This document shows, piece after piece, positions 41,480-59,317 of a stretch of 64,000 bases of DNA. This DNA is from Roseinatronobacter sp. S2 (GTDB lineage Bacteria > Pseudomonadota > Alphaproteobacteria > Rhodobacterales > Rhodobacteraceae), in NCBI RefSeq assembly GCF_029581395.1, contig NZ_CP121115.1, forward strand, positions 310,001 to 374,000, in the 5' to 3' direction. Every line of letters starts with the position of its first letter. Positions within the stretch are counted from its first letter, which is position 1. The notes under the pieces are model-generated. The model was not told the origin of the DNA and did not search any database. It saw only the letters and a program-made list of their open reading frames with translations. The translations under genes were made by a program, and so were the position numbers.

Positions 41480-41519
41480 TGGTTATTTTTTAATCACCAG
41501 CACAATGAGGAAGTACAAG

Positions 41520-42320: not shown

Positions 42321-42324
42321 TATC

Positions 42325-43212: not shown

Positions 43213-44160
43213 TTATTCGGACAAAGTGAACGGTGCTGTGTAATTGTCCACGTTTTCCGGTGTGATCAACAAGCAGTCAAAAAGCTGCTTCTCCTGATCG
43301 ACCATCGGTTCGCCGTTATTGATGTAGTAATCGGCCTGAATAACCGCCTCGCGGGAAAAGACCGCAACGGGTTGCAGCACGCTATAGGCCAACTCGCCAG
43401 CCTTGATCGCTTCTACCGCGTCAGGGCTGCCGTCGAAGCCACCGATGATGGTGCCTTCAAGGCGTCCGGCTTCTTTCAGCGCGGCAATCGCACCCAGTGC
43501 CATCTCGTCATTACCCGAAATCACCGCATCGATCTGGTCATGGGCCTGCATGATCGATTGCATCCGGTTGTAACCTTGTGTGCGATCCCAGTTGGCAACT
43601 TCCTCGGCAACTTTTTCAAGACCGGGATACTGGCCTAGAACGGTGTTATAGCCGTTAGACCGGGTGGCCGCGTTGTTGTCGGACGGGTTGCCGAAGAATT
43701 CAACATATCGCGCGTCATCCCCGACCAGTTCCTGCCATGTCACGGCACCCAGCGCCGCACCTTGCGCATTGTTGGACACCAGCTGCGCGATGGCGATGCC
43801 TGCCTCGTTTATCTCGGCATTGACCAGAAAGACCGGAATGCCAGCTTCGGTCGCACGGCGCACAACGCCCACCGACCCGTCCGCATTGGCAGGGTCAAGG
43901 ATAATGGCGCGAGCCCCGTTGGTGATGGCGGCGTCAATCAGGTTCGATTCCGTGTTGGTGTCACCGCGATGGGCCGAAACATTCGCCTCGTAGCCAAGCT
44001 CTTCGGCTGTGGCGCGGGCAACTTCGCCTTCGGTGAACCAGTAGGGGTTCGCCGGATCGTTCACGATAATTGATATCAGTCCTTCGGCGGAAGCAGCGCC
44101 CGCCATAAGCGGTATGGATGCTGCGGCCGCAAGAAGTGCGCGTCTGCTGAGCTTGAACAT
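43213..44160 (-). CDS. eryG: Sugar ABC transporter substrate-binding protein (RbsB-like, EryG)
   Basis: A 315-residue periplasmic binding protein of the ribose/galactose type. The signal region FKLSRRALLAAAASIPLMAG has a twin-arginine look. The mature protein starts EGLISIIVNDPANPYWFTEG and carries DPANADGSVGVVRRATEAGI and ISGNDEMALGAIAALKEAGR. It is the last gene of the leftward operon with DUF2291, ATPase and permease genes. Divergence from eryABCD makes erythritol the likely ligand, as in rhizobial eryEFG; another polyol is possible. Confidence 0.88.
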   Translation of the reverse strand: MFKLSRRALLAAAASIPLMAGAASAEGLISIIVNDPANPYWFTEGEVARATAEELGYEANVSAHRGDTNTESNLIDAAITNGARAIILDPANADGSVGVVRRATEAGIPVFLVNAEINEAGIAIAQLVSNNAQGAALGAVTWQELVGDDARYVEFFGNPSDNNAATRSNGYNTVLGQYPGLEKVAEEVANWDRTQGYNRMQSIMQAHDQIDAVISGNDEMALGAIAALKEAGRLEGTIIGGFDGSPDAVEAIKAGELAYSVLQPVAVFSREAVIQADYYINNGEPMVDQEKQLFDCLLITPENVDNYTAPFTLSE

Positions 44161-44253
44161 GAAATTTCTCTCCCTTGGTCAGTTGTGCCGGAAACCGGCG
44201 TTGATCGCGTCAGCATTGATGTAGCGGTTTGACGCGAATATCATGAGGGCGCA

Positions 44254-45300
44254 TCAGAGTTTCGCACCCTTTCCCCCGTATTGAATGGAGTTAAGCATCA
44301 CGGCGAGCACGATGACCGCGCCGGTAAAGACTGTCTGCCAGTAAGACGACACGCCAATAATCACGAGGCCCGCGCCAAGATAGACAATCACGAATGCGCC
44401 CAGCAATGTCCCGCGCACCGTGCCACGCCCCCCCATCAGCGACGCACCCCCGACAACAACCGCAGCAATCGCGGTCAGTTCATAGGTGGTGCCAGCGGTC
44501 GGCCCTGCTGATGTCAGCTGCGAGCTGAGAACCAGACCGGCGATTGCCGCGCAGACCCCCGACAGAACATAGACCCAGACCTGCACTTTCTTGACCGGCA
44601 CGCCCGAAAGTTCAGCCGCGCGTGCATTCCCGCCGGTGGAGTAAAGCCACCGTCCGAAAGGGGCGCGCGACAGCAGCAGATGCACCGCGACCGCCGTGGC
44701 CGTCAGCACGAAAATGCTGATCGGAACACCCCATAGGCGATAGAACCCCAGCCATTCGAAGCCGGTGTTGCCGAACGCCGGATTGCCAGACAGGTTGTTG
44801 AAGGTCAGCCCGTTGGTCATCAGCAGCGCCACACCGCGCGCGACATAAAGCGTGCCTAGTGTGGCCACGAAAGCAGGCACCTTCAGATAGGCCACCAACA
44901 CCCCGTTCACCACGCCGACCAGCGCCCCCATACACAACGTGCACACGACAACCGCCCAGACAGGCAGATACAGGATCACGCCCAACCCTTCGAGTTCGAC
45001 ACCCTGCATCAGAAAACCGGCGAACACGCCACTTAGCGCCAATGTGGAGCCGACCGACAGGTCGATTCCGCCCGACAGGATTACAAGCAGCATGCCAATT
45101 GCCAGCAACCCGAAAATTGCGACCTGCGATGTCATGGTAAGGAAGTTGGAAACCGATAAATACCTGTCGGACAACAAGGCGAATATCGTGATGATCGCAA
45201 TCAGCGCAAAGAAGGCGCGCCCCTCCAGCAGAAGGTGAACGATGTTCAGATCGCCCTTCCGGCCGCCCTTTGATGCTGTGGCGCTCATTTGGTCAGACAT
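44254..45300 (-). CDS. eryF: Sugar ABC transporter permease (RbsC-like, EryF)
   Basis: A 348-residue BPD_transp_2 permease with about 9-10 hydrophobic segments. Family signatures are MLLVILSGGIDLSVGSTLAL near the N-terminus and GGASLMGGRGTVRGTLLGAF near the C-terminus. The ATG at 45300 follows GGGAGA; the open frame extends to 45405 into the ATPase gene without similarity. It sits between the ATPase and binding-protein genes of the erythritol importer. Confidence 0.9.
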   Translation of the reverse strand: MSDQMSATASKGGRKGDLNIVHLLLEGRAFFALIAIITIFALLSDRYLSVSNFLTMTSQVAIFGLLAIGMLLVILSGGIDLSVGSTLALSGVFAGFLMQGVELEGLGVILYLPVWAVVVCTLCMGALVGVVNGVLVAYLKVPAFVATLGTLYVARGVALLMTNGLTFNNLSGNPAFGNTGFEWLGFYRLWGVPISIFVLTATAVAVHLLLSRAPFGRWLYSTGGNARAAELSGVPVKKVQVWVYVLSGVCAAIAGLVLSSQLTSAGPTAGTTYELTAIAAVVVGGASLMGGRGTVRGTLLGAFVIVYLGAGLVIIGVSSYWQTVFTGAVIVLAVMLNSIQYGGKGAKL

Positions 45301-45322
45301 GGTTTGATCTCCCTGAAAGGTG

Positions 45323-46876
45323 TCAGGCAACCAGGCTCTCGCCCGAGGCGGCCATGATTGCTTCCTTTGTGATGTCGCGGGTGAATTCCGCAGAAATCCG
45401 GCCACGTCGCATGACGATCACGCGATGGGCGATAGACAGGCATTCACCGACTTCCGATGTGGTATAGATCACCGCCATCCCGTCCCTTGCGTGCTCGGCC
45501 AGGATGCGGAACACCTCTGCCTTGGCACCGATATCGATTCCGCGCGACGGCTCGTCCAGCAGCACGACCGACGGTTTTGTTGCCAGCATCTTGCCGATGA
45601 CGACTTTCTGCTGGTTGCCCCCCGAAAGCGAGCCGATGGGCGCCTGTGGCCCGTCCGTCTTGACCGTCACTTCGCGGATCGCGCGGTCAATGATCGCGCC
45701 CTCATCCTTGCGGTTGGTCAGCAGCCCGCGTGTAAAACTGCCAATTGACGCCAGCGACAGGTTGCGCCCCACACTCATCGTCTGCACCAGCCCATCGCGC
45801 TGCCGGTCTTCCGGCACCAGCACAAGGCCCGCCGCAATACGCTGTGCAATGCTCATTTGCGCCACATCCTGGCCATGCAGCAGCACTTCTCCCGCAACTG
45901 CAGCCAAGCGGCCGGCCGCGCATTCCATCATCTCGGTGCGCCCAGCCCCCATCAGCCCGTAGATGCAGACAATCTCGCCCGCCTTCACCGACAGGTCGAT
46001 CCGGTCCACCGCGTTGCCGTCACCCGTGCCCGCAGCAACCGAAAGGCCGCGCAATTCCAGCGCTGGCGCGCCCATGTCATAGCCTTCGGGCGGGCTGCCA
46101 AGGTCAAAATTCTCGCCGACCATGTTGCGCACGATCCATTCAAGATCGATCTCGTCACGCGGGGCATATGCAGTCATATTGCCATCGCGCAGAACGACCG
46201 CATGGTCCGTGATTGTCAGCGCCTCTTCCAGATGGTGCGAAATATAGACGATGGACACGCCCCGCGCCTTCAGATCGTGGATTACCTTGAACAACACCTC
46301 CACCTCTGATGCAGACAGCGCCGAGGTTGGCTCGTCCATGATAAGAATGCGGGCATTTACCGAAAGTGCGCGTGCAATCTCGACAATTTGCTGTTGACCA
46401 AGGCGCAAATTCTCGACCGGGGTCAGCGGGTCGATATCTTCTTCCAGTTCGCGCATCAGCGCACGGGTCTGGCGCGCTTCTTCGGCATAGTTCACGCCGT
46501 CCCGCCCGACAATTTCGCGGCCCAGAAAAATATTGTCACGCACATTCATATTCGGCGCAAGGCTGAGTTCCTGATGAATGATCGAAATGCCAAGCGCCTG
46601 CGCATCAACGGTGGAGTGCAACTCGATTGGCTGCCCTTCAAGGATCAGTTCGCCGCTGCTGGGCCGCTGCACGCCCGACAGGATTTTCATTAGTGTGGAC
46701 TTACCAGCACCGTTTTCGCCGAAAAGCGTTGTGACCTGTCCGCGGTGAACGTCAAAATTCACCCCTTTCAGCGCATGAACAGCCCCGAATGACTTTGCGA
46801 CATTGCGCGCCGCCAGAACGACTTCTGCCAGATCGGGGCGGGCGGCGGGGGCCTCATCGGTCAGGGGCGTTTTCAT
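45323..46876 (-). CDS. eryE: Sugar ABC transporter ATPase, tandem domains (RbsA-like, EryE)
   Basis: A 517-residue ATPase with two ABC domains. The first has Walker A GENGAGKS at residues 53-60, the signature LRLGQQQIVEIARAL and Walker B RILIMDEPTSALSA. The degenerate second half has GLMGAGRTEMMECAAG, signature GSLSGGNQQKVVIGKML and VVLLDEPSRGIDIGAKAEV. This is the standard design for monosaccharide and polyol importers of the ribose class. Its ATG overlaps the DUF2291 stop by 4 bases. Confidence 0.92.
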   Translation of the reverse strand: MKTPLTDEAPAARPDLAEVVLAARNVAKSFGAVHALKGVNFDVHRGQVTTLFGENGAGKSTLMKILSGVQRPSSGELILEGQPIELHSTVDAQALGISIIHQELSLAPNMNVRDNIFLGREIVGRDGVNYAEEARQTRALMRELEEDIDPLTPVENLRLGQQQIVEIARALSVNARILIMDEPTSALSASEVEVLFKVIHDLKARGVSIVYISHHLEEALTITDHAVVLRDGNMTAYAPRDEIDLEWIVRNMVGENFDLGSPPEGYDMGAPALELRGLSVAAGTGDGNAVDRIDLSVKAGEIVCIYGLMGAGRTEMMECAAGRLAAVAGEVLLHGQDVAQMSIAQRIAAGLVLVPEDRQRDGLVQTMSVGRNLSLASIGSFTRGLLTNRKDEGAIIDRAIREVTVKTDGPQAPIGSLSGGNQQKVVIGKMLATKPSVVLLDEPSRGIDIGAKAEVFRILAEHARDGMAVIYTTSEVGECLSIAHRVIVMRRGRISAEFTRDITKEAIMAASGESLVA

Positions 46877-47529
46877 GGTGCCACCTCGAAGGTGACGGGT
46901 GTAATCAGCCAGCTTGCGGGATTGATCATCGTGAACACGCCGGTCACCGTTACGGTCTGGCCCGGCAGCGCATCACGGTCCAGCCCCGACAGTGCTTCTG
47001 CGGCCATGGCACGGTTTATTCCTGCACCCGCGTTCTGATATTCGATCTGGTTGGTGAAATTGCCGAATTCGATATCGCCTGTAATGTCGCGCAATTCTGT
47101 GCCGTTGATGGCCGGACCGGTCTGCACGCGAATTTGCGGGCCATCGGGCAGGTCATCCACAGCAATTTCGAAGATGCCCGAGCTGCCATCACCGACAACG
47201 CCGGTCAAACGCGCTGTCAGAACCGGAAATGCGCCCGCGACCCTGCCATAATCGGCAATGGCTGCGTCCCTGTCGGCGTCAAGCGCGGCCACAAGATCCG
47301 CCGCGTCAGGTGCCCGTCCGGCAACAAAATCGCGGATGCGGGGGAATTCAGATTGGCCGAACCTGTCTGGATCAAACGCTTGCTGGCGCAGGTCCGTTTC
47401 AGACCCGATCTGCACAACCTTGGTGTCAATTGCGATGGCACCAATAAGAGCTGCGACAACAACCGCAACAATCACCCTGCGGCGCGATTGCTTCGATCCC
47501 GATATGGGTGTGGTGCCAGTCACTGTCAT
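46873..47529 (-). CDS. DUF2291 family membrane-anchored protein
   Basis: A 218-residue protein with one N-terminal hydrophobic segment (about residues 17-37, RRVIVAVVVAALIGAIAIDT) and a periplasmic-looking domain containing TGVVGDGSSGIFEIAVDDLP and EFGNFTNQIEYQNAGAGINR. It matches DUF2291, often found as the first gene of erythritol/polyol ABC operons. There is no lipobox cysteine here, although some relatives are called lipoproteins. Its function is unknown; position suggests an accessory role in uptake. Confidence 0.8.
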   Translation of the reverse strand: MTVTGTTPISGSKQSRRRVIVAVVVAALIGAIAIDTKVVQIGSETDLRQQAFDPDRFGQSEFPRIRDFVAGRAPDAADLVAALDADRDAAIADYGRVAGAFPVLTARLTGVVGDGSSGIFEIAVDDLPDGPQIRVQTGPAINGTELRDITGDIEFGNFTNQIEYQNAGAGINRAMAAEALSGLDRDALPGQTVTVTGVFTMINPASWLITPVTFEVAP

Positions 47530-47884: not shown

Positions 47885-47938
47885 ATGACCAGCGGTGCCT
47901 GCCGAACCGGAAAAGGATCCGGTGCGCATGTCTTGTGA
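47885..47938 (+). CDS. Candidate 17-residue leader peptide overlapping eryA start
   Basis: ATG at 47885 has a near-consensus AAGGAGG 10 bases upstream, better than the site before eryA. The frame reads MTSGACRTGKGSGAHVL and stops at 47936-47938, overlapping the eryA ATG (47928) by 11 bases in another frame. This layout allows translational coupling. It could also reflect a one-base error that would give eryA a longer N-terminus. Confidence 0.45.
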   Translation: MTSGACRTGKGSGAHVL

Positions 47939-49496
47939 TCTTATCATCGGGGTCGATGCGGGAACGTCTGTCATAAAGGCAGTCGCCTTTGACCTGTCGG
48001 GCCATCAACTGGCCACAAGCGCTGTGCGCAACACTTACCTACAGGGCGCAGACGGGTCCGCCACACAGCGACTGTCCCAGACATGGGCCGATTGCGCCGC
48101 AGCAATTCGCGGCTTGTCGGGCAAGATAGACGGTCTTGCAGCGCGCGTTGCGGCGGTTGCCCTGACCGGACAAGGGGACGGGACATGGCTTGTCGGGGCA
48201 GGCGACACCCCCGTGGGCGATGCGTGGCTGTGGCTTGACGCGCGGGCCGCGCCGACCGTGGCGAACCTTGTCAGCGGCGGCGGCGAACGGGCCAGATTCG
48301 AGGCCACAGGAACAGGGTTGAACACTTGCCAGCAGGGCAGCCAGATGGCGCATATGAATGCGCATTTTCCAGAACTTCTGGACCGTGCCGAAGTGGCGCT
48401 GCACTGCAAGGACTGGTTGTTTCTGAACCTGACCGGCGTGCGCGCAACGGACCCGTCCGAGGCCAGCTTCACCTTCGGCAATTTCCGCACCCGCCGCTAC
48501 AGCGATGCGGTGATCGATGCGCTGGGTTTGTCGCAGCGCCGCCATCTTCTGCCCGAGATTATCGAGGGCACGACCGACACACGACCGCTGACTGCGGCAG
48601 CAGCAAGCGCGACCGGGTTGCGCGCGGGAACGCCTGTATGTCTGGGATATGTCGATATGGTGATGACCGCCCTTGGTGCGGGCGTGCATACCGGCGACGC
48701 GGGTGCTGCATGTTCAACCATAGGATCGACAGGTGTGCATATGCGCGCGGTCACATCGGACAATGTGCATCTGAATGCCGAAGGGACCGGATATGTTATC
48801 TGCCTGCCGGTTCCCGATCTGGTGACGCAGGTTCAGACAAACATGGCAGCAACACTGAATGTCGACTGGGCATTGGCACTGGCCGCAGAGTTGATGGCCG
48901 AAAGTGGCACAACCCCGACCCATGCCGATCTGGTGGGCCGGATTGATGCGTGGATGTCGCGCTCGCAACCGGGGGCATTGATCTATCATCCCTATATTTC
49001 CGATGCTGGCGAACGCGGCCCGTTCGTCAATGCCAATGCAAGCGCAAGCCTGATCGGCCTGAACGCCGCCCACCGTTTTCCCGACGTGATCCGTGCCGTG
49101 GTCGAAGGGTTGGGGATGGCGGCGCGTGATTGCTACACCGCGATGGGGACAATGCCGAATGAGCTGCGCCTGACGGGTGGGGCCGCCAGATCAGCCGCCC
49201 TGCGCCGTGTGTTGTCCGCCGCGCTGAACACACCCGTGCGCATATCGGCACGCGAAGAAGCGGGTGCAGCCGGATGCGCGATGATGGCTGCGGTTGCGAT
49301 CGGTGCCTATGAAGACATGGACGCCTGCATTGCCGAATGGACAACCCCCCATCTGGAAACCCCCGAAGGCCCGGATGCAGAACTGGTTCCGGTCTATGAC
49401 ACTCTTTTCAAGTCCTATCGCGCGGCGCGCGGCGCGCTAACGCCGGTCTGGGACACCCTGACCACGGCGCGCATTGCCAAAGGAGCAAAAAAATGA
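47928..49496 (+). CDS. eryA: Erythritol kinase (FGGY carbohydrate kinase)
   Basis: A 522-residue FGGY-family kinase that phosphorylates erythritol with ATP in the cytoplasm, the first step of the pathway. The phosphate-1 motif is IIGVDAGTSVIKAVAF near the N-terminus. Actin-like ATPase signatures follow (ALTGQGDGTWLVG, STIGSTGVHMRAV and LRLTGGAARSAALRRVLSAA). Length and N-terminus match Brucella EryA. The ATG at 47928 is chosen over the in-frame GTG at 47895 because AAAAGGA precedes it and MSCDLIIGVDAGTS fits relatives. Four-base overlap with eryB. Confidence 0.9.
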   Translation: MSCDLIIGVDAGTSVIKAVAFDLSGHQLATSAVRNTYLQGADGSATQRLSQTWADCAAAIRGLSGKIDGLAARVAAVALTGQGDGTWLVGAGDTPVGDAWLWLDARAAPTVANLVSGGGERARFEATGTGLNTCQQGSQMAHMNAHFPELLDRAEVALHCKDWLFLNLTGVRATDPSEASFTFGNFRTRRYSDAVIDALGLSQRRHLLPEIIEGTTDTRPLTAAAASATGLRAGTPVCLGYVDMVMTALGAGVHTGDAGAACSTIGSTGVHMRAVTSDNVHLNAEGTGYVICLPVPDLVTQVQTNMAATLNVDWALALAAELMAESGTTPTHADLVGRIDAWMSRSQPGALIYHPYISDAGERGPFVNANASASLIGLNAAHRFPDVIRAVVEGLGMAARDCYTAMGTMPNELRLTGGAARSAALRRVLSAALNTPVRISAREEAGAAGCAMMAAVAIGAYEDMDACIAEWTTPHLETPEGPDAELVPVYDTLFKSYRAARGALTPVWDTLTTARIAKGAKK

Positions 49497-51004
49497 CGGG
49501 TATCGCGAAAGTTGATCTATTTGTCATCGGTGGTGGAATTAACGGCGCGGGCATTGCCCGTGACGCCGCAGGCCGCGGTCTAAGCGTTGTTCTGTGCGAA
49601 AAAGACGATCTGGCCGAGGGCACGTCATCGCGTTCAGGCAAGCTGGTGCATGGCGGGTTGCGTTATCTGGAATATTACGAATTCAGGCTGGTCCGCGAAG
49701 CCTTGATCGAGCGCGAAGTGCTGATGCGCAACGCACCCCACATCATCTGGCCCATGCGGTTCGTCCTGCCGCATTCACCACAGGACCGCCCTGCATGGCT
49801 GGTCCGGCTGGGGCTGTTTCTTTATGATAACCTTGGCGGGCGCAAGAAGCTGCCCGGTTCGCGCACCCTTGATCTGCACCGCGATCCCGAAGGCGCACCG
49901 ATCAAGGACAAATACACGCGGGGCTTTGAATATTCCGATTGCTGGGTTGACGATGCGCGACTGGTGATCCTGAACGCGGTGGATGCGGCGGAACATGGCG
50001 CAACGGTCCTGACCCGGTCGCCCTGCACCTCGGCGCGGCGCGAAAACGGCGTCTGGCGCGTGACCACAACCGACACCATGACCGGCGCGGAGCGGGTTTT
50101 TGAAGCCAAGGTTCTGGTGAATGCCGCAGGGCCATGGGTCTCGGATGTTCTGACGCGTGTCGCCGGGTCAAACTCGGCGCGCAATATCCGGCTTGTAAAG
50201 GGCAGTCATATCATCGTGCCTAAATTCTGGAAGGGTGAGAACGCCTACCTTGTTCAGAACCATGACAAGCGTGTGATTTTCATCAACCCCTATGAGCGTG
50301 ACAAGGCCCTGATCGGCACGACAGATATTGCCTATGAGGGCCAGCCAGAGGATGTGACCGCAGACGAGGCCGAAATACAGTATCTGATCGACGCCGTGAA
50401 CCGCTACTTCAAGGAAGAACTGACCCGCGACGACGTGCAGACCAGCTTTTCCGGGGTCCGGCCATTATTCGATGACGGACAGGGCAACCCGTCGGCGGTA
50501 ACGCGCGATTATGTGTTTGATCTGGACGAAGCGGGCGGCGCGCCACTGCTGAACGTGTTTGGTGGCAAGATCACCACATTTCGTGAACTGGCCGAAAGGG
50601 GCATGCACCGGATCGGCAAGTTCTTTCCTGCGATGGGCAAGGACTGGACGCACAGCGCGGTCCTGCCCGGCGGCGATCTTGAACGGGCTGATTATGACCT
50701 GTTCCGCAACCAGATGAAGCTGGATTACCCGTGGATGCCACGGGCGTTGCGCCAGCATTATGGCCGACTGTATGGCACCCGTATTGCACGCATTGTCGGA
50801 ACCGCAACCGGCCTTGACGGGCTTGGGCAGCATTTCGGCGGCACCCTGTATGAAGCAGAAGTGACCTATCTGGTGCAGCATGAATGGGCGCGCACCGCCG
50901 AGGATATCCTTTGGCGCAGAACCAAACACCAGTTGCATCTGACCCCTGAAGAACGGGCCGCGTTCACGCAATGGTTCGATGCAGCGCATGCACAGGCGGC
51001 CTGA
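49493..51004 (+). CDS. eryB: Erythritol phosphate dehydrogenase (GlpD-like flavoprotein)
   Basis: A 503-residue FAD-dependent dehydrogenase of the glycerol-3-phosphate dehydrogenase family. The FAD motif is VIGGGINGAGIARDAAGRGL at about residues 8-27, followed by GTSSRSGKLVHGGLRYLEYY. The C-terminal GlpD-type domain ends with LTPEERAAFTQWFD. In the established route EryB oxidises erythritol phosphate to a 3-tetrulose phosphate and passes electrons to quinone at the membrane. Position between eryA and eryC distinguishes it from ordinary GlpD. Confidence 0.9.
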   Translation: MTGIAKVDLFVIGGGINGAGIARDAAGRGLSVVLCEKDDLAEGTSSRSGKLVHGGLRYLEYYEFRLVREALIEREVLMRNAPHIIWPMRFVLPHSPQDRPAWLVRLGLFLYDNLGGRKKLPGSRTLDLHRDPEGAPIKDKYTRGFEYSDCWVDDARLVILNAVDAAEHGATVLTRSPCTSARRENGVWRVTTTDTMTGAERVFEAKVLVNAAGPWVSDVLTRVAGSNSARNIRLVKGSHIIVPKFWKGENAYLVQNHDKRVIFINPYERDKALIGTTDIAYEGQPEDVTADEAEIQYLIDAVNRYFKEELTRDDVQTSFSGVRPLFDDGQGNPSAVTRDYVFDLDEAGGAPLLNVFGGKITTFRELAERGMHRIGKFFPAMGKDWTHSAVLPGGDLERADYDLFRNQMKLDYPWMPRALRQHYGRLYGTRIARIVGTATGLDGLGQHFGGTLYEAEVTYLVQHEWARTAEDILWRRTKHQLHLTPEERAAFTQWFDAAHAQAA

Positions 51005-51005
51005 C

Positions 51006-51938
51006 ATGGGGCTTACATTATCGCTGAACACCAATCCTTTGGTAAACCGCTTCGCTGAACCCGATGACCTGATCAATACCATCGCACGCGATATCCGCAT
51101 CCGTGACATCCAGTTGACGCATGAATTCATCAACCCCGGCTGGCCCGCCCCTGTCATTGCGCGGTTGGGTCGCGACATGGACCGCGCCCTTGCCCGCACT
51201 GGTGCGCGGGTCACATCCGGCATGACCGGCCCTTATGGGCGGCTGAACCATTTTGGCCATCCCGACAAGGATGTGCGCCGGTATTATGTGGACTGGTTCA
51301 AGAGTTTTGCCGACATTATCGGCGATCTTGGCGGAAATTCGGTCGGCACGCAGTTCGCGATCTTCACCTACCGCGATTACGATGACCCGAACCGGCGCGA
51401 AGACCTGATCCGGGCTGCGATTGATTGCTGGGCCGAAGTGGCCGAGCACGCCAAGACTGCCGGGCTGGATTATATCTTCTGGGAACCAATGAGCATCGGG
51501 CGCGAGTTCGGTGAAACAATCGCTGCGTCCCTTGCACTGCAAGCGCGGCTTACTGCCGCACCGATGGCCGTGCCAATGTGGATGATGGCCGATATTGACC
51601 ACGGCGATATCACATCCAGCAACCCGGATGACACCGACCCATATGCATGGGCGCGGGCCGTGCCGAAACTAAGCCCGATTATCCATATCAAGCAATCGAT
51701 GATGGACAAGTCGGGCCACCGGCCGTTCACTGCTGCATTCAACGCAAAAGGTGCAATCCAGCCTGCCCCGTTGCTAGAGGCATTGACGGCGGGCGGGGCT
51801 GTGGACAATGAAATATGTCTGGAACTGTCCTTCAAGGAACGCGAGCCGGATGACCGTCAGGTCATCGCGCAGATCGCGGAAAGTGTGGCGTTCTGGGCAC
51901 CATATATCGACAGCGGTATCGCAAAGCTGAAGGTATGA
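51006..51938 (+). CDS. eryC: Tetrulose phosphate isomerase EryC (xylose isomerase-like TIM barrel)
   Basis: A 310-residue TIM barrel of the AP-endonuclease-2/xylose isomerase-like superfamily. Likely metal ligands occur in IFWEPMSIGREFG (Glu), MMADIDHGDITSS (Asp/His) and IIHIKQSMMDKSGH (His). In Brucella, EryC isomerises 3-tetrulose 4-phosphate to erythrulose 1-phosphate. The ATG at 51006 is one base after the eryB stop, and the longer frame from 50979 lies inside eryB. Order eryA-B-C-D is conserved. Confidence 0.88.
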   Translation: MGLTLSLNTNPLVNRFAEPDDLINTIARDIRIRDIQLTHEFINPGWPAPVIARLGRDMDRALARTGARVTSGMTGPYGRLNHFGHPDKDVRRYYVDWFKSFADIIGDLGGNSVGTQFAIFTYRDYDDPNRREDLIRAAIDCWAEVAEHAKTAGLDYIFWEPMSIGREFGETIAASLALQARLTAAPMAVPMWMMADIDHGDITSSNPDDTDPYAWARAVPKLSPIIHIKQSMMDKSGHRPFTAAFNAKGAIQPAPLLEALTAGGAVDNEICLELSFKEREPDDRQVIAQIAESVAFWAPYIDSGIAKLKV

Positions 51939-51994
51939 TATGTCGTGACGGGTTTTGCTGACATGTTGCCGGGCGGGTGAATTTTGCCATACTG

Positions 51995-52010
51995 GTGTTT
52001 TCAAAAACAC
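51995..52010. promoter_or_regulatory. Palindrome upstream of eryD
   Basis: A perfect inverted repeat, GTGTTTT-CA-AAAACAC, in the 164-base gap between eryC and eryD. It may be an operator giving eryD a separately controlled promoter, or a hairpin in the transcript. Confidence 0.4.
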
Positions 52011-52102
52011 TTCGGCCCATGATTACAAGCCCTGCCGGAAAGCCGTTATTGTGGCGGGGCGGTCAGGCTGCTTCTGACATCACCAAGGAAAAGGACATAA
52101 GG

Positions 52103-53059
52103 ATGCCAAGAGATCGCAGCGCGGCAGATGCAGATAGCTCCCTCGCGATCCGCGCAGCGTGGCTGCATTACGTTGCCGGATTAAGGCAGGGTGAAGTTGC
52201 CAAGCGGTTGGGTGTCCCGTCGGTCAAGGCGCACAGGCTGATTGCGCGGGCCGTCGCCGAAGGGGCAGTCAAGGTCACTATCGAAGGCGACATGATCGAA
52301 TGTGTCGAACTGGAACAGGCGCTGTGCACCCGTTTCGGGCTGGAAACATGTGAAGTTGCCCCCGATCTGGATGAAGACGGGCTGCCGCTGCGCACGCTTG
52401 GGCAGGCCGGTGCCGTGCGGTTGCGGCAATGGCTGGAAAGCGGGGAGGAACTGACAATCGGTATCGGCCATGGCAGGACGCTTGCGGCCGCAGTGCATAC
52501 AATGCCGCGCTTTGCCACCAACGGGCTGCGCTTTGTGTCGCTGCTGGGCGGGTTGACCCGTAATTTTGCCGCCAACCCGCATGACGTGATGCATCTGCTT
52601 GCCGAAAAGACCGGGGCGCAATCCTATGTTATGCCGGTGCCGTTCTTCGCCAACTCTGCCGAGGACCGAGAGGTATTGCTGGCACAACACGGGGTTGCAG
52701 ATGTGTTCCAGCTTGCCCAGACCGCACCGCTGAAGATCGTAGGTATCGGCACGGTCAAGGTGGATGCGCAGCTTGTCACCTCGGGGATGATCGAACCATC
52801 CGAGATCGAGGAAATATATCAACATGGTGGTGTGGGCGAAATGCTGGGGCATTTTTTCGACGCCGACGGGCAGATCCTTGAAACGCCGCTGACATCGCGC
52901 ACCCTTGCGGTGTCACTTGATCAAGGTCAGGACGACAGGATCATCGCGCTGGCCGGCGGCAAAGAAAAGGTGCAACCCCTTAGGGCGGTGCTGAACAGTG
53001 GCCGCCTTTCTGGGTTAATCACCGATGAACGCACCGCACAGGCGTTGCTGTCCATCTGA
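52103..53059 (+). CDS. eryD: SorC/DeoR-type erythritol operon repressor
   Basis: A 318-residue SorC-family regulator. The N-terminal helix-turn-helix is YVAGLRQGEVAKRLGVPSVK followed by AHRLIARAVAEGAVKVTI, residues about 25-60. The large sugar-binding domain has ELTIGIGHGRTLAAAVHTMP and ALAGGKEKVQPLRAVLNSGR, the C-terminal SorC signature. Brucella EryD represses the ery operon until erythritol is present. The ATG at 52103 is chosen because AAGGAAAAGGA precedes it and the length matches EryD; the frame extends to 51977. Confidence 0.9.
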   Translation: MPRDRSAADADSSLAIRAAWLHYVAGLRQGEVAKRLGVPSVKAHRLIARAVAEGAVKVTIEGDMIECVELEQALCTRFGLETCEVAPDLDEDGLPLRTLGQAGAVRLRQWLESGEELTIGIGHGRTLAAAVHTMPRFATNGLRFVSLLGGLTRNFAANPHDVMHLLAEKTGAQSYVMPVPFFANSAEDREVLLAQHGVADVFQLAQTAPLKIVGIGTVKVDAQLVTSGMIEPSEIEEIYQHGGVGEMLGHFFDADGQILETPLTSRTLAVSLDQGQDDRIIALAGGKEKVQPLRAVLNSGRLSGLITDERTAQALLSI

Positions 53060-53093: not shown

Positions 53094-54128
53094 TCAATAG
53101 CTGCGCGCCATATCCGCCAGTGACCGCGCACGGATTGCAGATGCCTGCCCGCTGGTGCCGAAGGCGTTGAATTTCTCAATGCATACGGCAGTCATGCTGT
53201 CCATTGCGGGTTTCAGGTATTTGCGCGGATCAAATTCAGACGGGGTGTCGATCAGCGTCTGGCGAATGGCTGCGGTTGCCGCCAGACGCAGATCGGTATC
53301 AATATTGACCTTGCGCACACCATGGCGGATGCCGCGCTGGATTTCTTCCAGCGGCACACCCCATGCAGGGCCAATATCCCCGCCATATTCATTGATGCGC
53401 AGCCGCAGGCTTTCGGGCACCGATGATGAACCGTGCATGACCAGATGGGTGTTCGGCAGACGTTTGTGAATAGCCTCGATCACGTTCATGGCCAGCACGT
53501 CGCCATCTGGTTGCCGGGTGAATTTATATGCACCGTGGCTGGTTCCCATGGCGACGGCCAGCGCATCGACACCCGTTGCCGCGACGAAACGCTCGGCCTC
53601 GTCCGGGTCGGTCAGAAGCTGGTCATGCGACAGCTTTTCAGTCGCACCATGGCCATCTTCCTGATCCCCCATTCCGGTTTCAAGTGATCCCAGAACCCCA
53701 AGCTCCCCCTCCACGGAGACGCCGCAGGCATGGGCCATCTGGACCACCTGACGGGTGATTGTGGTGTTATAGTCGAAATCAGCGGGCGTGGTGCCGTCGG
53801 CCTTCAGCGATCCGTCCATCATCACAGATGTGAACCCGTGCTGTATTGCCGTGGCACAAGATGCCAGATCGTTCCCGTGGTCCAGATGCATGCACACCGG
53901 AATATGCGGGTATATCTCGACCAGCCCGTCGATCAGCCGTGCCAGAACAGTGTCGTTGGCATAGGCCCGCGCGCCGCGACTGGCCTGCATGATGACCGGC
54001 GCACCGACCACGTCTGCCGCCGCCATGATGGCAAGACCCTGTTCCATGTTCGACATGTTGAAAGCTGGCACCGCATATCCGTTTTCGGCGGCATGATCCA
54101 GAAGCTGGCGCAAGGTGATACGGGGCAT
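53094..54128 (-). CDS. Class II fructose-bisphosphate aldolase, Calvin-cycle subtype
   Basis: A 344-residue zinc aldolase beginning MPRITLRQLLDHAAENGYAV, as in CbbA proteins of the Calvin subtype. Zinc and catalytic residues are in CMHLDHGNDLASC, GVSVEGELGVLG, GTSHGAYKF and HLVMHGSSSVPE. This subtype can also join DHAP and erythrose 4-phosphate to sedoheptulose 1,7-bisphosphate. It is the third gene of the tkt-fbp-fba operon and ends 34 bases from the convergent eryD. Confidence 0.92.
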   Translation of the reverse strand: MPRITLRQLLDHAAENGYAVPAFNMSNMEQGLAIMAAADVVGAPVIMQASRGARAYANDTVLARLIDGLVEIYPHIPVCMHLDHGNDLASCATAIQHGFTSVMMDGSLKADGTTPADFDYNTTITRQVVQMAHACGVSVEGELGVLGSLETGMGDQEDGHGATEKLSHDQLLTDPDEAERFVAATGVDALAVAMGTSHGAYKFTRQPDGDVLAMNVIEAIHKRLPNTHLVMHGSSSVPESLRLRINEYGGDIGPAWGVPLEEIQRGIRHGVRKVNIDTDLRLAATAAIRQTLIDTPSEFDPRKYLKPAMDSMTAVCIEKFNAFGTSGQASAIRARSLADMARSY

Positions 54129-54148
54129 GGTGCCTCCTGACTGAGGGT

Positions 54149-55147
54149 TTACGAAAGGTAGTCTTGCAAAACCGCAACTTCTGACCCCGACCCGAAGATC
54201 AACGGGACGCGATCATGCAGATGCGCAGGGCACAGATCCAGGATGGGGGTCGTGCCATCGGTTGCCGACCCGCCCGCCTGTTCGATCAGAAAGGCGATCG
54301 GAAACGCCTCATAAGCAAGGCGCAGATAGCCGCGTTCATATCCCGGACGTGCATCTGCCGGATACAGAAACAGGCCGCCCCGGCGCAAAACACGGTGCAG
54401 ATCACCCACTGCGGCGGCGATCCAGCGCATGTTGAAATCGCAGCCCCGCGGGCCGTCTACGCCCGCGATCAGGTCTGTGACATAGCTGCGCAACCCCGGC
54501 GACCAGTGGCGCATGTTCGACACATTATAGGCGATGGTGGTTGTTTGTTTCGGCACGCGAAGGGCCGTTGCGTCGATGTGGAAGCGGCCTGTTTCGGGAT
54601 CAAGTGTTGCGATTGTGACGCCTGCGCCGGTGCTGAACCCCAGATCAACGCTGTGCCCGAAAGACAGGTAGAACGCCGCAATGATATCGCGCCCCGGGCG
54701 CAGAAAACTGTCCCCCCTTGGAAAGACGCAAAAGAACGCCCCAAGGGGCGCACCGATGCCAATGCTGCCCGACCCGTCAATCGGGTCCATGGCCACATCG
54801 AAACGGCCATCGGGATCAAGGTCGATGATCTCGGGCGCTTCTTCGGACATCAGTTTTGCCACGGACAGGCTGCGCATAGCGTCTGTCAGGTGCCTGTGCG
54901 CGGCCATATCCAACGCCTTCTGCCGGTCGCCGGACTCGTTGGTGCCGACCACTGCGGACGGATCACCCGGCAACAACCCCGCCCCCAGACGCCCCGCGAT
55001 GGGAACACATGCCGCTGCAATACCGGCGATCAGGGCAGCAAGTGCCTGCTGGTCCGCATTCTGTCCGGCAGCATCGGACAGATAGGCGTCAAGGGACGCA
55101 CCCTGCACCGGGCCGTCAGTATCAAGCGTCAGGCGCGATATCGCCAT
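54149..55147 (-). CDS. Class I fructose-1,6-bisphosphatase family protein, divergent
   Basis: A 332-residue sugar bisphosphatase. The family signatures are LMSEEAPEIIDLDPDG (metal-binding Glu pair) and AMDPIDGSGSIGIGAPLGAF. The latter differs from the usual DPLDGSSNID core. The substrate-binding region DFNMRWIAAAVGDLHRVLRR and FPIAFLIEQAGGSATDG is present. It would hydrolyse fructose or sedoheptulose 1,7-bisphosphate. ATG at 55147 directly follows the transketolase stop; a GTG at 55156 is an alternative start overlapping it. It is co-transcribed with tkt and fba. Confidence 0.85.
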   Translation of the reverse strand: MAISRLTLDTDGPVQGASLDAYLSDAAGQNADQQALAALIAGIAAACVPIAGRLGAGLLPGDPSAVVGTNESGDRQKALDMAAHRHLTDAMRSLSVAKLMSEEAPEIIDLDPDGRFDVAMDPIDGSGSIGIGAPLGAFFCVFPRGDSFLRPGRDIIAAFYLSFGHSVDLGFSTGAGVTIATLDPETGRFHIDATALRVPKQTTTIAYNVSNMRHWSPGLRSYVTDLIAGVDGPRGCDFNMRWIAAAVGDLHRVLRRGGLFLYPADARPGYERGYLRLAYEAFPIAFLIEQAGGSATDGTTPILDLCPAHLHDRVPLIFGSGSEVAVLQDYLS

Positions 55148-55148
55148 G

Positions 55149-57173
55149 TCAGACACCCGATCCCAGCAGCGCGCGCGCCTTTGCGATGATGGCGTCTTGG
55201 GTAATGCCGAAGGACTTGTAAAGTGCCTCTGCCGGACCTGAAGCGCCGAAGCCGTCCATGCCGATCACGTCATCTTCGTGGGCAACATAGCGGGTCCATC
55301 CGAACTTTCCTGCCGCCTCAACAGCGATGCGCGGCGCAGTGCCAAGGGTTTCGGCACGGTATTCGGCGGATTGCATCTCGAACAATTCCCAACTGGGCAT
55401 AGATACGACAGCAATGCCCAATCCCTCGGTGCAAAGTGCCTCGGCGGCGGCAACCGCAAGGCTGACTTCGGTGCCGGTGGCCAGAAGGGTCAGGTCGCGG
55501 CGCGCGCCGAACTGGCGGATGACATAAGCCCCCTTTGCCGAAAGATTTTCATCCCCCTCCGTCAGGCGCAGTTGCGGCACGCCCTGACGGCTAAGCGCAA
55601 GCAGCGATGGCGTGGTGCGCGTGCGTATGGCAATATCCCAGCATTCCAACGTTTCCACCGCATCCGCAGGGCGCAAGGTCAGCAGGTTCGGGATCGCCCG
55701 CAATGAGGCAAGATGCTCGACCGGCTGGTGGGTCGGGCCATCCTCGCCCAGCCCGATACTGTCATGCGTCATGACATAGATCGTGCCGATACCCATCAGG
55801 GCCGACAGGCGTATGGCATTGCGCGCATAGTCCGAGAAAACAAGGAATGTGCCGCCATATGGGATCAGCCCGCCATGGGTGTTCATGCCGTTCATCGCAG
55901 CGGCCATTGCAAATTCGCGCACGCCATACCCCACATACCGGCCCGGCGCGGCGGCGCTGAACTGGCTGTCCACCGCCGGAACCCGTGTCAGGTTCGATCC
56001 GGTCAGATCTGCGGACCCCCCGATCAGTTCGGGCAGCGCGGGGGCAAGCGCGGCAAGCGCCATCTGGCTGGCCTTGCGCGTGGCAACCTTTTGCGGGCTG
56101 TCAAACAGGGCCTTGCGCGCTGCGGCAACTGTGGCTGCGTAGGTGTCTGGCAAGGTGCGGGCCATGCGACGGGTGAATTCCGCATGCATGTCCGATTGCG
56201 CAAGCCGCGCTTCCCATGCATCGCGACGGTCCTGCCCCCGCGCGCCAATCGCGCGCCACTCGCTGGCCAGTTCTTGCGGAATCTCAAAGGGGGCTGATGC
56301 CCAGCCCAATCGCACCTTTGTGGCGGCGGCTTCTTGCGGGCCAAGCGGTGCGCCATGGGATGCGGCGGTTCCCGCCTTGGTGGGCGCGCCGAAGCCTATG
56401 ACGGTTTTCATGGCGATCAGCGAAGGCTTGCCAGTTTCCGCCTTGGCATTGCGAATGGCGTTCGACACGGCGCGGGCATCATACCCGTCACACGATTGCA
56501 CATGCCAGCCGCAGGCCGACAGACGGGCTGGCACATCATCCGAGAACGAAATTGATGTAGGCCCGTCGATAGTGATCTGGTTGTCATCATAAAGAACAAC
56601 CAGCTTGCCCAGACCAAGGTGACCGGCAAGCGAAATAGCCTCTTGTCCGATGCCTTCTTGCAGACAGCCATCGCCCACGAAAACATAGGTATGGTGATCG
56701 ACAAGGTCACCCCCGAATTCGGCGGCAAGCGCGCGTTCGGCCATCGCCATACCCACCGCACTGGCCAGCCCCTGACCCAGCGGGCCGGTGGTGGTTTCAA
56801 TGCCCTTGGCATGCCCGTATTCGGGGTGTCCGGCAGTTTTGGCACCTAACTGGCGGAAGTTGCGGATCTGATCGGTCGTCATATCCTTGTAGCCTGTCAG
56901 GTGCAAAAGCGCATAAAGCAGCATGGATGCATGACCATTCGACAGCACAACACGGTCGCGGTCAGGCCAGTCCGGATTGGATGCGTCAAATTTCAGATGT
57001 TCGCGAAACAGGACCGTGGCCGCATCTGCCATACCCATCGGCGCGCCCGGATGGCCGGAACCGGCAGCTTCGACCGCGTCAATGCTAAGCGCGCGGATAC
57101 AATTCGCAAGATCGAAATTGCGCGGGTCAATCGCGGCCGTGGCGGCGATTTCTGCTGGCAGGTCGTTGGGCAT
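55149..57173 (-). CDS. tkt: Transketolase
   Basis: A 674-residue thiamine-diphosphate enzyme. His41 in EAAGSGHPGAPMGMADA, the TPP motif GDGCLQEGIGQEAISLAGHL ending in the DDN of VLYDDN, and the pyrimidine-domain DSIGLGEDGPTHQPVEHLAS are all intact. It transfers two-carbon units among sugar phosphates, including erythrose 4-phosphate. The ATG at 57173 has AGGAGG before it. As first gene of tkt-fbp-fba and divergent from the eryR-tpiA2-rpiB operon, it appears dedicated to tetrose disposal. Confidence 0.93.
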   Translation of the reverse strand: MPNDLPAEIAATAAIDPRNFDLANCIRALSIDAVEAAGSGHPGAPMGMADAATVLFREHLKFDASNPDWPDRDRVVLSNGHASMLLYALLHLTGYKDMTTDQIRNFRQLGAKTAGHPEYGHAKGIETTTGPLGQGLASAVGMAMAERALAAEFGGDLVDHHTYVFVGDGCLQEGIGQEAISLAGHLGLGKLVVLYDDNQITIDGPTSISFSDDVPARLSACGWHVQSCDGYDARAVSNAIRNAKAETGKPSLIAMKTVIGFGAPTKAGTAASHGAPLGPQEAAATKVRLGWASAPFEIPQELASEWRAIGARGQDRRDAWEARLAQSDMHAEFTRRMARTLPDTYAATVAAARKALFDSPQKVATRKASQMALAALAPALPELIGGSADLTGSNLTRVPAVDSQFSAAAPGRYVGYGVREFAMAAAMNGMNTHGGLIPYGGTFLVFSDYARNAIRLSALMGIGTIYVMTHDSIGLGEDGPTHQPVEHLASLRAIPNLLTLRPADAVETLECWDIAIRTRTTPSLLALSRQGVPQLRLTEGDENLSAKGAYVIRQFGARRDLTLLATGTEVSLAVAAAEALCTEGLGIAVVSMPSWELFEMQSAEYRAETLGTAPRIAVEAAGKFGWTRYVAHEDDVIGMDGFGASGPAEALYKSFGITQDAIIAKARALLGSGV

Positions 57174-57237
57174 CTGATCCTCCTTTGGTTCGCCATCCAA
57201 TATCGTATCTTGCCGCACTTAACAAGAAAAATCACAA

Positions 57238-57279
57238 TATAACATCATTGACGTTATTTATGGGATATGTAATGTTATA
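57238..57279. promoter_or_regulatory. Candidate DeoR (EryR) operator between tkt and eryR
   Basis: An 8-base inverted repeat, TATAACAT (57238-57245) and ATGTTATA (57272-57279), with a further half-site CGTTAT between them, fills the AT-rich divergent promoter. Arm centres are about three helical turns apart. The adjoining DeoR gene is the likely binder and would control both directions. Confidence 0.55.
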
Positions 57280-57298
57280 AGTATGAAGAGGGGCAATC

Positions 57299-58078
57299 AT
57301 GAAACGCAATGACAGACAACAGGCGATCATGGATTTGCTGATGGCAGACCGAGAGGTCGAGCTGGACTATCTTGCCGATCTCTTTTCGGTTTCAAAGATG
57401 ACGATACACCGCGATCTGGACGAGCTTGAGGGCGCGGGGCTACTGCGCAAAATCCGCGGCGGGGCAACCATCGAAGCAGGCACCCGTTTTGAAAGCGATT
57501 TCCGGTTTCGCGAATTGCAAGGCGCGGCTGCCAAATCCACCATTGCCGAAGCGGCGCTGGCGCTTGTCGAACCCGGCATGACGGTTATGATCAATGATGG
57601 CTCCATGGCGGCAGTGCTGGGCCGAATGATCCCTGCCCGCCGCCCGCTGACCGTTATCACAAACAATCTAGCCGTGATTGATGTCCTGAAGGCCGAACCG
57701 GGGATCACCCTGATCGCGCTTGGCGGTGTCTATTCGGCCAAGTTCAATGCGTTCCTTGGGAAGGTTTGCGAAGATTCCCTGACGCATCTGCGCGCCGATA
57801 TCGCCTTCATCTCGACCCCGGCTGTGACCGGCCTTGAGGTGTTCCACATGGATGACGAAGTAGTGCGCGTGAAGCGTGCGATGATGGCATCATCAGGGCG
57901 GCGTTGCCTGATGGTCAACCATCTGCGCTTTGGGCACGCGGCGCTGCACAAGCTGGCCGATCTGCATGAATTCGACAGCATCATCACCGACCGGCTTCCC
58001 GCAGCTGACACGCTGGACCCGCTGAGGGCCGCGAATTTGCCCCTGACAATCGCACACACCAAAGAGGCCACGACATGA
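57299..58078 (+). CDS. eryR: DeoR-family regulator of erythritol locus (EryR-like)
   Basis: A 259-residue DeoR-type repressor. The helix-turn-helix is VELDYLADLFSVSKMTIHRD at about residues 19-38, followed by LDELEGAGLLRKIRGGATI, and the sensor domain contains MTVMINDGSMAAVLGRM. GAGGGG precedes the ATG. It overlaps tpiA2 by 4 bases. The same deoR-tpiA2-rpiB trio accompanies eryABCD in Brucella and rhizobia, where it is called eryR or deoR. Confidence 0.88.
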   Translation: MKRNDRQQAIMDLLMADREVELDYLADLFSVSKMTIHRDLDELEGAGLLRKIRGGATIEAGTRFESDFRFRELQGAAAKSTIAEAALALVEPGMTVMINDGSMAAVLGRMIPARRPLTVITNNLAVIDVLKAEPGITLIALGGVYSAKFNAFLGKVCEDSLTHLRADIAFISTPAVTGLEVFHMDDEVVRVKRAMMASSGRRCLMVNHLRFGHAALHKLADLHEFDSIITDRLPAADTLDPLRAANLPLTIAHTKEATT

Positions 58079-58848
58079 CACCTGCCCCGTTCTGGATCGG
58101 CACCAGCTGGAAAATGAACAAGACACTGGCCGAAGCACGCGCCTTTGCAGAAGCGCTGGCCGCCGCAGACAAGGACAGGGACCCACGCATCCAGCGGTTT
58201 GTTATCCCGCCCTTCACGACTGTGCGAGAGGTCAGCACCATCCTGTCGGGGGCATCGGTCAAGGTTGGCGCGCAGAACATGCATTGGGCCGATCACGGGG
58301 CATGGACCGGCGAGGTTTCACCCGTGATGCTGGTTGATTGCGGGCTGGACATTGTGGAGCTTGGCCATTCCGAGCGGCGCGCGCATTTCGGCGAAACCGA
58401 TGCAACCGTCGCGCTAAAGACCGAAGCGGCGGTGCGCCATGGCCTGACCCCGCTGATCTGCATTGGCGAGACGCTGGAAGAACGCAACGCCGGGCGCGCA
58501 CAGGCGGTGCTGGACACACAGGTGCGCACTGCGTTGCACAAGCTGTCGTCTGATCAAAAGGCCGCCCCGATCCTGCTGGCATATGAACCCGTATGGGCAA
58601 TCGGCGAGCACGGCATCCCCGCGACGTCCGACTATGCCGATGCACGCCAGTCCGAAATTATAGCCGTGGCACAGGACGTTCTGGGCCGAAAGATTCCTTG
58701 CCTGTATGGCGGGTCGGTGAATCCGGATAACTGCGAAGAACTGATTCAGTGCCCGCATGTCAACGGGCTGTTTATCGGGCGCTCTGCGTGGAATGTCGAA
58801 GGCTACCTTGACATCCTTGCCAGATGCGCCGCCACCATCAGACCTTGA
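58075..58848 (+). CDS. eryH: Triose-phosphate-isomerase-like tetrulose phosphate isomerase
   Basis: A 257-residue TIM homologue. Catalytic Lys13, His98 (VELGHSERR) and Glu171 (AYEPVWAIG) are intact, but the usual Asn11 is Ser (GTSWKMNKT). In Brucella the equivalent EryH/TpiA2 interconverts L-erythrulose 1-phosphate and D-erythrulose 4-phosphate. The loop-6 [11 protein letters not shown] also departs from the housekeeping WAIGTGKTA. Four-base overlap with the regulator and 13 bases before rpiB make this the pathway isomerase rather than a glycolytic copy. Confidence 0.9.
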
Positions 58849-58861
58849 AAAGGAACACGAC

Positions 58862-59317
58862 ATGAAAATTGCGATTGCAGGCGACAGCGCTGGCGAAGCC
58901 CTGGCAAAGGTGCTGGCCGACCACCTGAAAGACAAGCATGAAATCCAAGAGGTTTCGCGCACCGATGACGGGCCGGACAAGTTCTATGCCAATTTGGCGG
59001 ATCGGGTGGCTTCGGCCGTGATTGCAGGCAAGTATGACCGCGCCATCCTTGTGTGCGGAACCGGCATCGGGGTTCAAATGGCGGCCAACAATGTCCCCGG
59101 CATTCGCGCGGCCCAATGCCACGACACCTATTCCGCAGCCAAAGCCTCGACCTCGAACAACGCGCAGATCATCACAATGGGCGCGCGCGTGATCGGCACC
59201 GAACTTGCCAAAGATATCGCCGATGCGTTCCTTGCCACCGCGTTTGACCCCAAGGGCAAATCGGCGGGCAATGTGCAAGCGATCAACGATGTTGACGCAA
59301 AATATCGCAAGGCATAA
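58862..59317 (+). CDS. eryI: RpiB-like tetrose phosphate isomerase
   Basis: A 151-residue RpiB-fold sugar-phosphate isomerase. The active-site Cys65 is in [20 protein letters not shown], followed by [20 protein letters not shown]. In the known pathway EryI converts D-erythrulose 4-phosphate to D-erythrose 4-phosphate. AAGGAA lies just before the ATG at 58862; the longer frame starting at 58757 overlaps tpiA2 and has no similarity. It is the last gene of this operon. Confidence 0.9.

Follow-up and report, generated by a model that had tools for sequence, protein, structure and literature searches.

The 64,000-nucleotide stretch of the Roseinatronobacter sp. S2 genome analyzed here (contig NZ_CP121115.1, positions 310,001 to 374,000; the window) carries an erythritol island in which a three-gene operon encoding a transketolase (Tkt), a class I bisphosphatase (Fbp) and a class II aldolase (Fba) lies between eryABCD and eryR-tpiA2-derI. 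We propose, with a probability of roughly 0.6, that this operon provides a dedicated exit for erythrose 4-phosphate (E4P) that bypasses transaldolase. We favor a dedicated route because the module recurs at related loci, its proteins form separate groups, it shares a probable operator with eryR and it is exchanged with a transaldolase-family gene at one slot. Gene content, protein groups, linkage, the repeat cluster, the exchange and the stoichiometry were all obtained here.

The three genes lie on the minus strand in the order tkt (55149-57218), fbp (54149-55156) and fba (53094-54128), and each product scores above a curated family cut-off. Tkt matches TIGR00232 (814 bits, cut-off 682), Fbp matches the class I fructose bisphosphatase (FBPase) family NF006780 (381.5 bits, cut-off 358) and Fba matches both TIGR01521 (FruBisAldo_II_B; 572.5 bits, cut-off 496), which we take to be the 'Calvin subtype' of class II aldolases, and TIGR00167 (cbbA). 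The tkt start is probably the ATG at 57173, because GGAGG lies just upstream of it and close homologs align from residue 12, and that of fbp is probably the ATG at 55147, one base past the tkt stop. With these likelier starts the spacing is one base between tkt and fbp and 20 bases between fbp and fba, and the gap between tkt and eryR is therefore about 125 bp. The operon and its placement between the two ery blocks are thus as the original prediction described them, and the arrangement is real rather than a product of chance.

In the proposed route, EryA-C, TpiA2 and DerI would convert erythritol into E4P, which Fba would join with dihydroxyacetone phosphate (DHAP) to form sedoheptulose 1,7-bisphosphate (SBP). 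Fbp, a candidate FBPase/SBP phosphatase (SBPase), would then irreversibly remove one phosphate to give sedoheptulose 7-phosphate. From this and glyceraldehyde 3-phosphate (GAP) the island Tkt would form pentose phosphates, and from pentose phosphate and more E4P it would form fructose 6-phosphate (F6P); Fba and Fbp might also make F6P from trioses. The trio would in this way do transaldolase's job alongside the genome's small transaldolase. We infer the enzyme specificities and the flux; the stoichiometry was examined with a small flux model lacking the oxidative pentose phosphate steps. E4P consumption in this model was zero when both transaldolase and the SBP route were absent, and also when the SBP route was present without Tkt. 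Three E4P yielded one F6P and two GAP by way of transaldolase versus two F6P by way of the SBP route. The oxidative pentose phosphate steps release CO2, and once they were added to the model E4P could leave as GAP. The stoichiometry thus fits a need for either transaldolase or the SBP route if the oxidative branch is off.

The same three gene families are found together in Calvin-cycle (cbb) operons (e.g. L015, L016, L240 and L241), and the trio might be the remnant of such an operon that lost its phosphoribulokinase (PRK) and Rubisco genes and ended up in the island by happenstance. The original prediction had found neither enzyme nearby, and we found neither genome-wide: PF00485 has no PRK match in the whole source genome (4.45 Mb in 6 contigs, given as 100% complete; 122 candidates scored), and the sole RuBisCO_large match, an open reading frame (ORF) of 413 aa, scores far under the Rubisco cut-offs. 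This ORF (L133:4335-5576; contig C3, about 578-580 kb) was rejected as a Rubisco. Its first part is OiaX-like and its second part OiaK-like (apionate pathway), its best scores being to these two proteins but both far under cut-off, and it is perhaps the remnant of two genes.

The protein trees also separate the trio from cbb copies. Among the 44 rows of the Fbp tree, 37 (27 from ery/derI loci, six from rhizobial plasmids and four unlinked) fall on one side of a branch with support 100/100 and length 0.59; the other side holds five cbb copies, the prk-adjoining L007 and the long-branched L243. Of the six plasmid loci, one (L239) shows no closer match to derI than 55%. Trees made by a quick method gave similar divisions. 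In that of Tkt (55 rows), the 27 rows from ery/derI loci and rhizobial plasmids cluster together (SH-aLRT 100, length 0.58), and cbb and housekeeping copies fall outside; in that of Fba (38 rows), 29 rows cluster together (SH-aLRT 100) and cbb copies again fall outside. Brucellaceae copies fall inside the ery groups of all three proteins. Within Fbp, the residue corresponding to position 130 of the window protein is Gly in 36 of the 37 ery-type rows and Ser in six cbb-side rows (L243 left out), and the window protein has the motif DPIDGSGSI rather than the DPLDGSSNI of cbb copies. The description of the operon as 'Calvin-type' therefore calls for qualification: the gene families are shared with cbb operons, but none of the proteins groups with cbb-operon copies. 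Because the trio moreover recurs in varying order at DerI loci, and prk is found at none of the 15 closest fbp places in the family (see below), we reject descent from a Calvin-cycle operon as very improbable.

The trio comes on top of housekeeping counterparts encoded outside the island, namely a second tkt (contig C1, 57% identical to the island tkt), glpX and a class I Fba of PF01791 type (NF006704, 533 bits, cut-off 277). A class I aldolase of the PF00274 family had no match in this genome (0 of 14 control genomes and three relatives matched in that search). When the genome was searched with the window Fbp, the island copy was the sole match, and the same was true of the window Fba in a search with that protein, no search having been made with the class II family PF01116. 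The genome also has one transaldolase-family gene, of TalC/Fsa type (231 aa, PF00923; TIGR00875 297 bits, cut-off 246), and the proposed route would therefore run parallel to transaldolase. Of the original prediction, a dedicated route that dispenses with transaldolase, the first half gains from the recurrence, the separate protein groups, the shared operator and the exchange described below, whereas 'transaldolase-free' was overstated for a genome that has such a gene.

We examined recurrence at loci scanned from genome contigs with an alignment of DerI, keeping the best 80 and searching them with the window's own proteins. These loci represent close relatives rather than a random selection, and 17 of them fall short of 19 kb, so that some genes may have been missed there. 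Among 385 genomes of the class, only two exceeded the cut-off of the family model NF051858; as linkage could not be tested on so few, we used the DerI-alignment loci together with a family-wide fbp search. At least one of tkt, fbp and fba is present in 31 of the 80 loci and none of the three in 49 (fbp in 24, fba in 18, or 17 without the L055 fragment, and tkt in 17), and neither prk nor rbcL was detected in any of the 80 at the cut-offs used. The search for other genomes that carry the trio at ery loci, suggested with the original prediction, thus shows that the module recurs without prk.

Its arrangement varies. The window order, fba-fbp-tkt between eryD and eryR, is found in L049, L085, L101 and L107 and also in L051, where the contig stops before eryD. 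In L110, Roseibium L009 and Paracoccus TOH L317, fbp-fba lies behind derI and tkt before eryR, and in Brucellaceae (L111, L112, L115-L117 and L119) fba-fbp, with or without tkt, lies behind derI on the opposite strand. Thalassospira has the trio together with eryABCD. Plasmids of Rhizobium acidisoli, Rhizobium CCGE532 and Sinorhizobium fredii GR64 carry tkt-fbp-fba with tpi and derI but no eryABC in the fetched stretch, and an Agrobacterium salinitolerans plasmid carries a like module, again with no eryABC in the stretch fetched and with a DeoR gene in between. On one Agrobacterium plasmid (L017 and L319), about 100 kb separates fbp-fba-DeoR-tpi-derI from an ery-type tkt. Four loci (L053, L054, L058 and L066) have fbp as the only member of the trio, located between eryR and either eryD or eryC, which suggests that the bisphosphatase can be kept alone.

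Samples not chosen by DerI gave a similar linkage. A search with the window fbp across 394 genomes from 393 genera of the family matched 122, and the best identities show a gap between 53% and 48%. We read up to 20 kb around fbp in all 15 genomes at or above 53% (the window included) and at 26 lower-scoring places, taken from the upper ranks with short contigs skipped. A derI gene lies near fbp in 9 of the 15 versus none of the 26 (Fisher p 1.4e-5), and prk in none of the 15 versus 20 of the 26 (Fisher p 1.1e-6). Four of the nine derI-linked genomes (G584, G409, G663 and G446) seem to be within the set of 80 as well. In a sample of 24 genomes of the genus, several of them incomplete, DerI of at least 69% identity occurs in five, and fbp in four of these five versus none of the other 19 (p 4.7e-4). 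The three genes might be chance neighbors with no functional tie to erythritol, and in favor of this six of the 15 family genomes have such an fbp away from derI. Nevertheless, the derI linkage in the family sample, the spare housekeeping copies elsewhere in the genome, the recurrence in different arrangements and on rhizobial plasmids, and a shared repeat cluster all speak against chance, and we reject this explanation as scarcely credible.

The repeat cluster, defined as three or more ATMACA/TGTKAT hexamers in 60 bp, occurs once in the 64-kb window, at 57231-57278 in the divergent region between tkt and eryR (57299-58078, plus strand), which encodes a DeoR-family regulator. First-order Markov randomization gave 0.037 clusters per copy of the window and a cluster in 0.0006 of the copies of the intergenic stretch. 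The 80 DerI loci (1,498,724 bases) contain 39 clusters, 37 of them within 330 bp upstream of eryR, tkt or fbp, as are all 15 clusters of four or more hexamers; the two exceptions lie some 600 bases before eryA (L073) and at the end of eryR (L101). With stretches between divergent genes counted for both genes, a cluster lies upstream of eryR in 34 of 56 cases, of tkt in 10 of 17, of fbp in 7 of 23, of tpiA2 in 1 of 75 and of fba in 0 of 18, and upstream of none of eryA (0/49), eryB (0/57), eryC (0/59), eryD (0/54) and derI (0/78). The motif was picked by eye in these same intergenic stretches and the per-gene counts are therefore descriptive; the contrast with the other genes and with the 26 lower-scoring fbp regions, none of which has a cluster, is independent.

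Other arrangements of the module also have clusters. L112 has one before eryR and another before its separate fba-fbp-tkt operon, the plasmid modules L013, L017, L018, L244 and L245 have one before tkt or fbp, and the tkt/eryR interval of two loci with tkt and a transaldolase-type gene (tal; L315 and L316) holds one as well. No cluster was found in 22 of the 56 eryR loci, in L014, L317, L318, L319, L320, L239 and L282, or at the fbp of L092 and L118. An unlinked fbp-fba with no derI in the 20 kb read (L283, G482) has a four-copy cluster at about 10900-10946, some 400 bases upstream of fbp. The cluster is probably the operator to which EryR would bind, and EryR, transcribed divergently from tkt, probably controls both the isomerases that form E4P and the trio predicted to consume it.

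The slot occupied by fbp-fba in the window can hold a different gene. Plasmid ery loci of Aestuarium and Marivivens have an ery-type tkt followed by a gene annotated as fructose-6-phosphate aldolase. This gene also follows tkt in Sinorhizobium meliloti L318 and L320. Three of the proteins encoded at these places were tested and exceed the cut-off of TIGR00875 (TalC/Fsa); they are at least 86% identical to one another and 68-70% identical to the window genome's own. A TalC-type gene is present in 13 of the 80 DerI loci. Counting full or edge-cut genes, the combinations are fbp-fba in nine loci, tkt-fbp-fba in six, fbp in five, tkt-tal in five, tal in four, tkt-fbp-fba-tal in two, tkt-fbp-tal in two, tkt in two and none in 45, such that tal or fbp is also present in 15 of the 17 tkt loci. 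L055 has open frames for tkt and tal but only fragments of fbp (residues 9-161) and fba (205-344).

Several observations weigh against a dedicated SBP route. FBPase and SBPase are indistinguishable from sequence. Because TIGR00875 is named for fructose-6-phosphate aldolase, transaldolase activity of the swapped gene is a supposition, and the fragments in L055 stem from a draft assembly. With tal in 13 of the 80 loci and fbp in 24, chance would bring the two together in 3.9, and four loci have both. We therefore reject a strict mutual exclusion between tal and fbp-fba; the exchange does not amount to exclusion. The 45 loci without tkt, fbp, fba or tal indicate that erythritol use does not need the module at the locus. 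Conversely, Sinorhizobium meliloti plasmids (L318, and L320 of Rm41) have tkt-tal with no derI or ery genes nearby, and six of the 15 family genomes show no derI in the stretch read, although in one of these (L284) the sequence stops 1.1 kb to one side of fbp and a 47% RpiB-like match was left uncounted. Likewise, fbp or fbp-fba occurs alone, without derI, in Paracoccus aminovorans, P. yeei, Alloyangia and Salipiger (on plasmids in Paracoccus, Alloyangia and Salipiger).

Alternatively, the trio might serve ordinary gluconeogenesis, with Fba and Fbp rebuilding F6P from trioses released by Tkt and with transaldolase as the sole maker of sedoheptulose 7-phosphate. Both families are named for fructose bisphosphate, two loci (L049 and L051) keep tal alongside tkt-fbp-fba, the fbp-fba of P. 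yeei adjoins a C4-dicarboxylate transporter gene away from ery genes, and the two GAP that the transaldolase route gives per three E4P could be recycled in this manner. However, GlpX and a class I Fba are already available in this genome for that task, fbp-fba sits where tal sits in the tkt-tal operons of ery loci, and, according to the parts of PMC11005471 consulted, Brucella suis requires its Fba on erythritol only once tal is deleted. We therefore regard gluconeogenesis as the sole purpose of the trio as rather unlikely; the gluconeogenic and SBP roles are not mutually exclusive.

The chemistry of the dedicated E4P exit is already known from Brucella, and the idea of a bypass is not new. 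Brucellaceae fba and fbp genes behind derI belong to the same tree groups as those of the window, whose Fbp is 48% identical to that of Brucella gallinifaecis; we take BAB2_0365 to be the ery-adjacent fba and BAB2_0364 to be fbp. The fba of the Brucella study is a homolog of BAB2_0365, and in the parts of that study consulted (PMC11005471, 2024) growth of B. suis biovar 5 on erythritol requires transaldolase, or Fba with Fbp or a second phosphatase, Bbp, which shares the work. Each single mutant grows on erythritol but Δfba Δtal does not, and Fbp hydrolyzes SBP in vitro. An fba-tal double mutant of strain Rev1 likewise fails to grow on erythritol, according to part of PMC11508834. In both systems E4P derives from erythritol, and the replacement of transaldolase by Fba and a bisphosphatase that is reported for B. 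suis (PMC11005471) is what we propose here. Unlike in Brucella, the window trio is one operon divergent from eryR and has its own Tkt; six of the 80 DerI loci are Brucellaceae loci with fbp, and only two of these also have tkt.

Other known systems share parts of the arrangement. The rhizobial and proteobacterial erythritol loci compared by Geddes et al. (2013, PMC3599248) resemble the window in eryABCD, eryR-tpiB-rpiB and a fructose-bisphosphate aldolase gene. In the parts consulted this gene adjoins rpiB in Brucella, and in Mesorhizobium it is located between eryC and the eryR operon. In contrast to the window, that text has no occurrence of 'transketolase', and the parts examined mention no bisphosphatase gene. 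Alphaproteobacterial cbb operons also combine fbp, tkt and a class II fba in one operon, but the window differs from them in lacking prk and Rubisco, in its DeoR-type neighbor and in its separate protein groups. The SBPase variant of the ribulose monophosphate cycle in Bacillus methanolicus, as outlined in parts of PMC11005471, likewise devotes a bisphosphatase and an aldolase to making sedoheptulose 7-phosphate. It differs in its GlpX-type bisphosphatase and its substrate, methanol, compared with class I Fbp and erythritol in the window. Our searches of open-license literature turned up no paper that deals with the tkt-fbp-fba operon, with its operator or with its transaldolase exchange, and the examined parts of PMC12780249, PMC5896264 and PMC5118466 have nothing on the operon. 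What is new is thus the dedicated operon with its own Tkt, the shared probable operator, the spread and the exchange with transaldolase.

The remaining genes of the island form a complete erythritol locus, and related loci have the same set. Named by context, eryA (47895-49496, plus strand) encodes an FGGY-family erythritol kinase, with homologs of 59-79% identity in 55 of the 80 DerI loci, and eryB (49493-51004, plus) a GlpD-like flavin adenine dinucleotide (FAD) dehydrogenase presumed to act on erythritol phosphate (59 of 80). eryC (50979-51938, plus; PF01261; 64 of 80) encodes a member of the TIM-barrel sugar-phosphate isomerase/epimerase family and eryD (51977-53059, plus) a regulator with a SorC-type sugar-binding domain (PF04198). 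The stretch between eryD and fba has no notable fold (z 0.60). Beyond eryR, tpiA2 (eryH; 58075-58848, plus) encodes a triose-phosphate-isomerase-like protein (NF000722, 434 bits; 78 of 80), by context a tetrulose-phosphate isomerase, and derI (eryI, rpiB-like; 58862-59317, plus) the predicted D-erythrulose-4-phosphate isomerase that would yield E4P (NF051858, 242.9 bits, cut-off 240); the derI ORF is listed from 58757, but homologs align from 58862.

Beside eryA, ATP-binding cassette (ABC) transporter genes on the minus strand (43213-47529) are presumed to encode an erythritol importer, named from their translations and from similar genes elsewhere: a substrate-binding protein (43213-44160), a permease (44254-45405; its annotated start is probably over-long), an ATPase (45323-46876) and a DUF2291-like protein (46873-47529). 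Similar genes adjoin eryA in Roseibium L009 and Thalassospira L014. Next to the presumed transporter, an inositol-monophosphatase-like ORF followed by a DeoR-like regulator was recognized by eye at 41505-43116. A further FGGY kinase and GlpD-like dehydrogenase, about 30% identical to EryA and EryB and possibly a second polyol branch, are encoded in L049 (10559-15522) and, at several other loci, behind derI; in L049 an ORF that reads by eye like a dihydroxyacetone kinase follows. The contig of L050 is titled Enemella evansiae (Actinomycetota) but holds an alphaproteobacterial ery locus, and the title is probably wrong.

We lean slightly toward a broader view in which a single cassette for E4P exit, mostly controlled by EryR, is made up of interchangeable parts, namely Tkt, TalC, Fbp and Fba of these groups, and moves together with the isomerases that form E4P rather than with erythritol use as such; cassette genes also occur on conjugative rhizobial plasmids beside other sugar genes. 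Some lineages would then form sedoheptulose 7-phosphate reversibly, by transaldolase, and others irreversibly, by SBP aldolase and bisphosphatase. If so, a transaldolase-family gene and an aldolase-bisphosphatase pair would alternate at one position, and the loci would offer natural strain pairs for asking why a cell pays a phosphate to replace a reversible reaction, as well as a ready cassette for engineering the use of four-carbon sugars. The Brucella bypass would belong to a broader gene set that is both mobile and co-regulated, and the irreversible solution would make the non-oxidative pentose phosphate pathway one-way during growth on four-carbon sugars.

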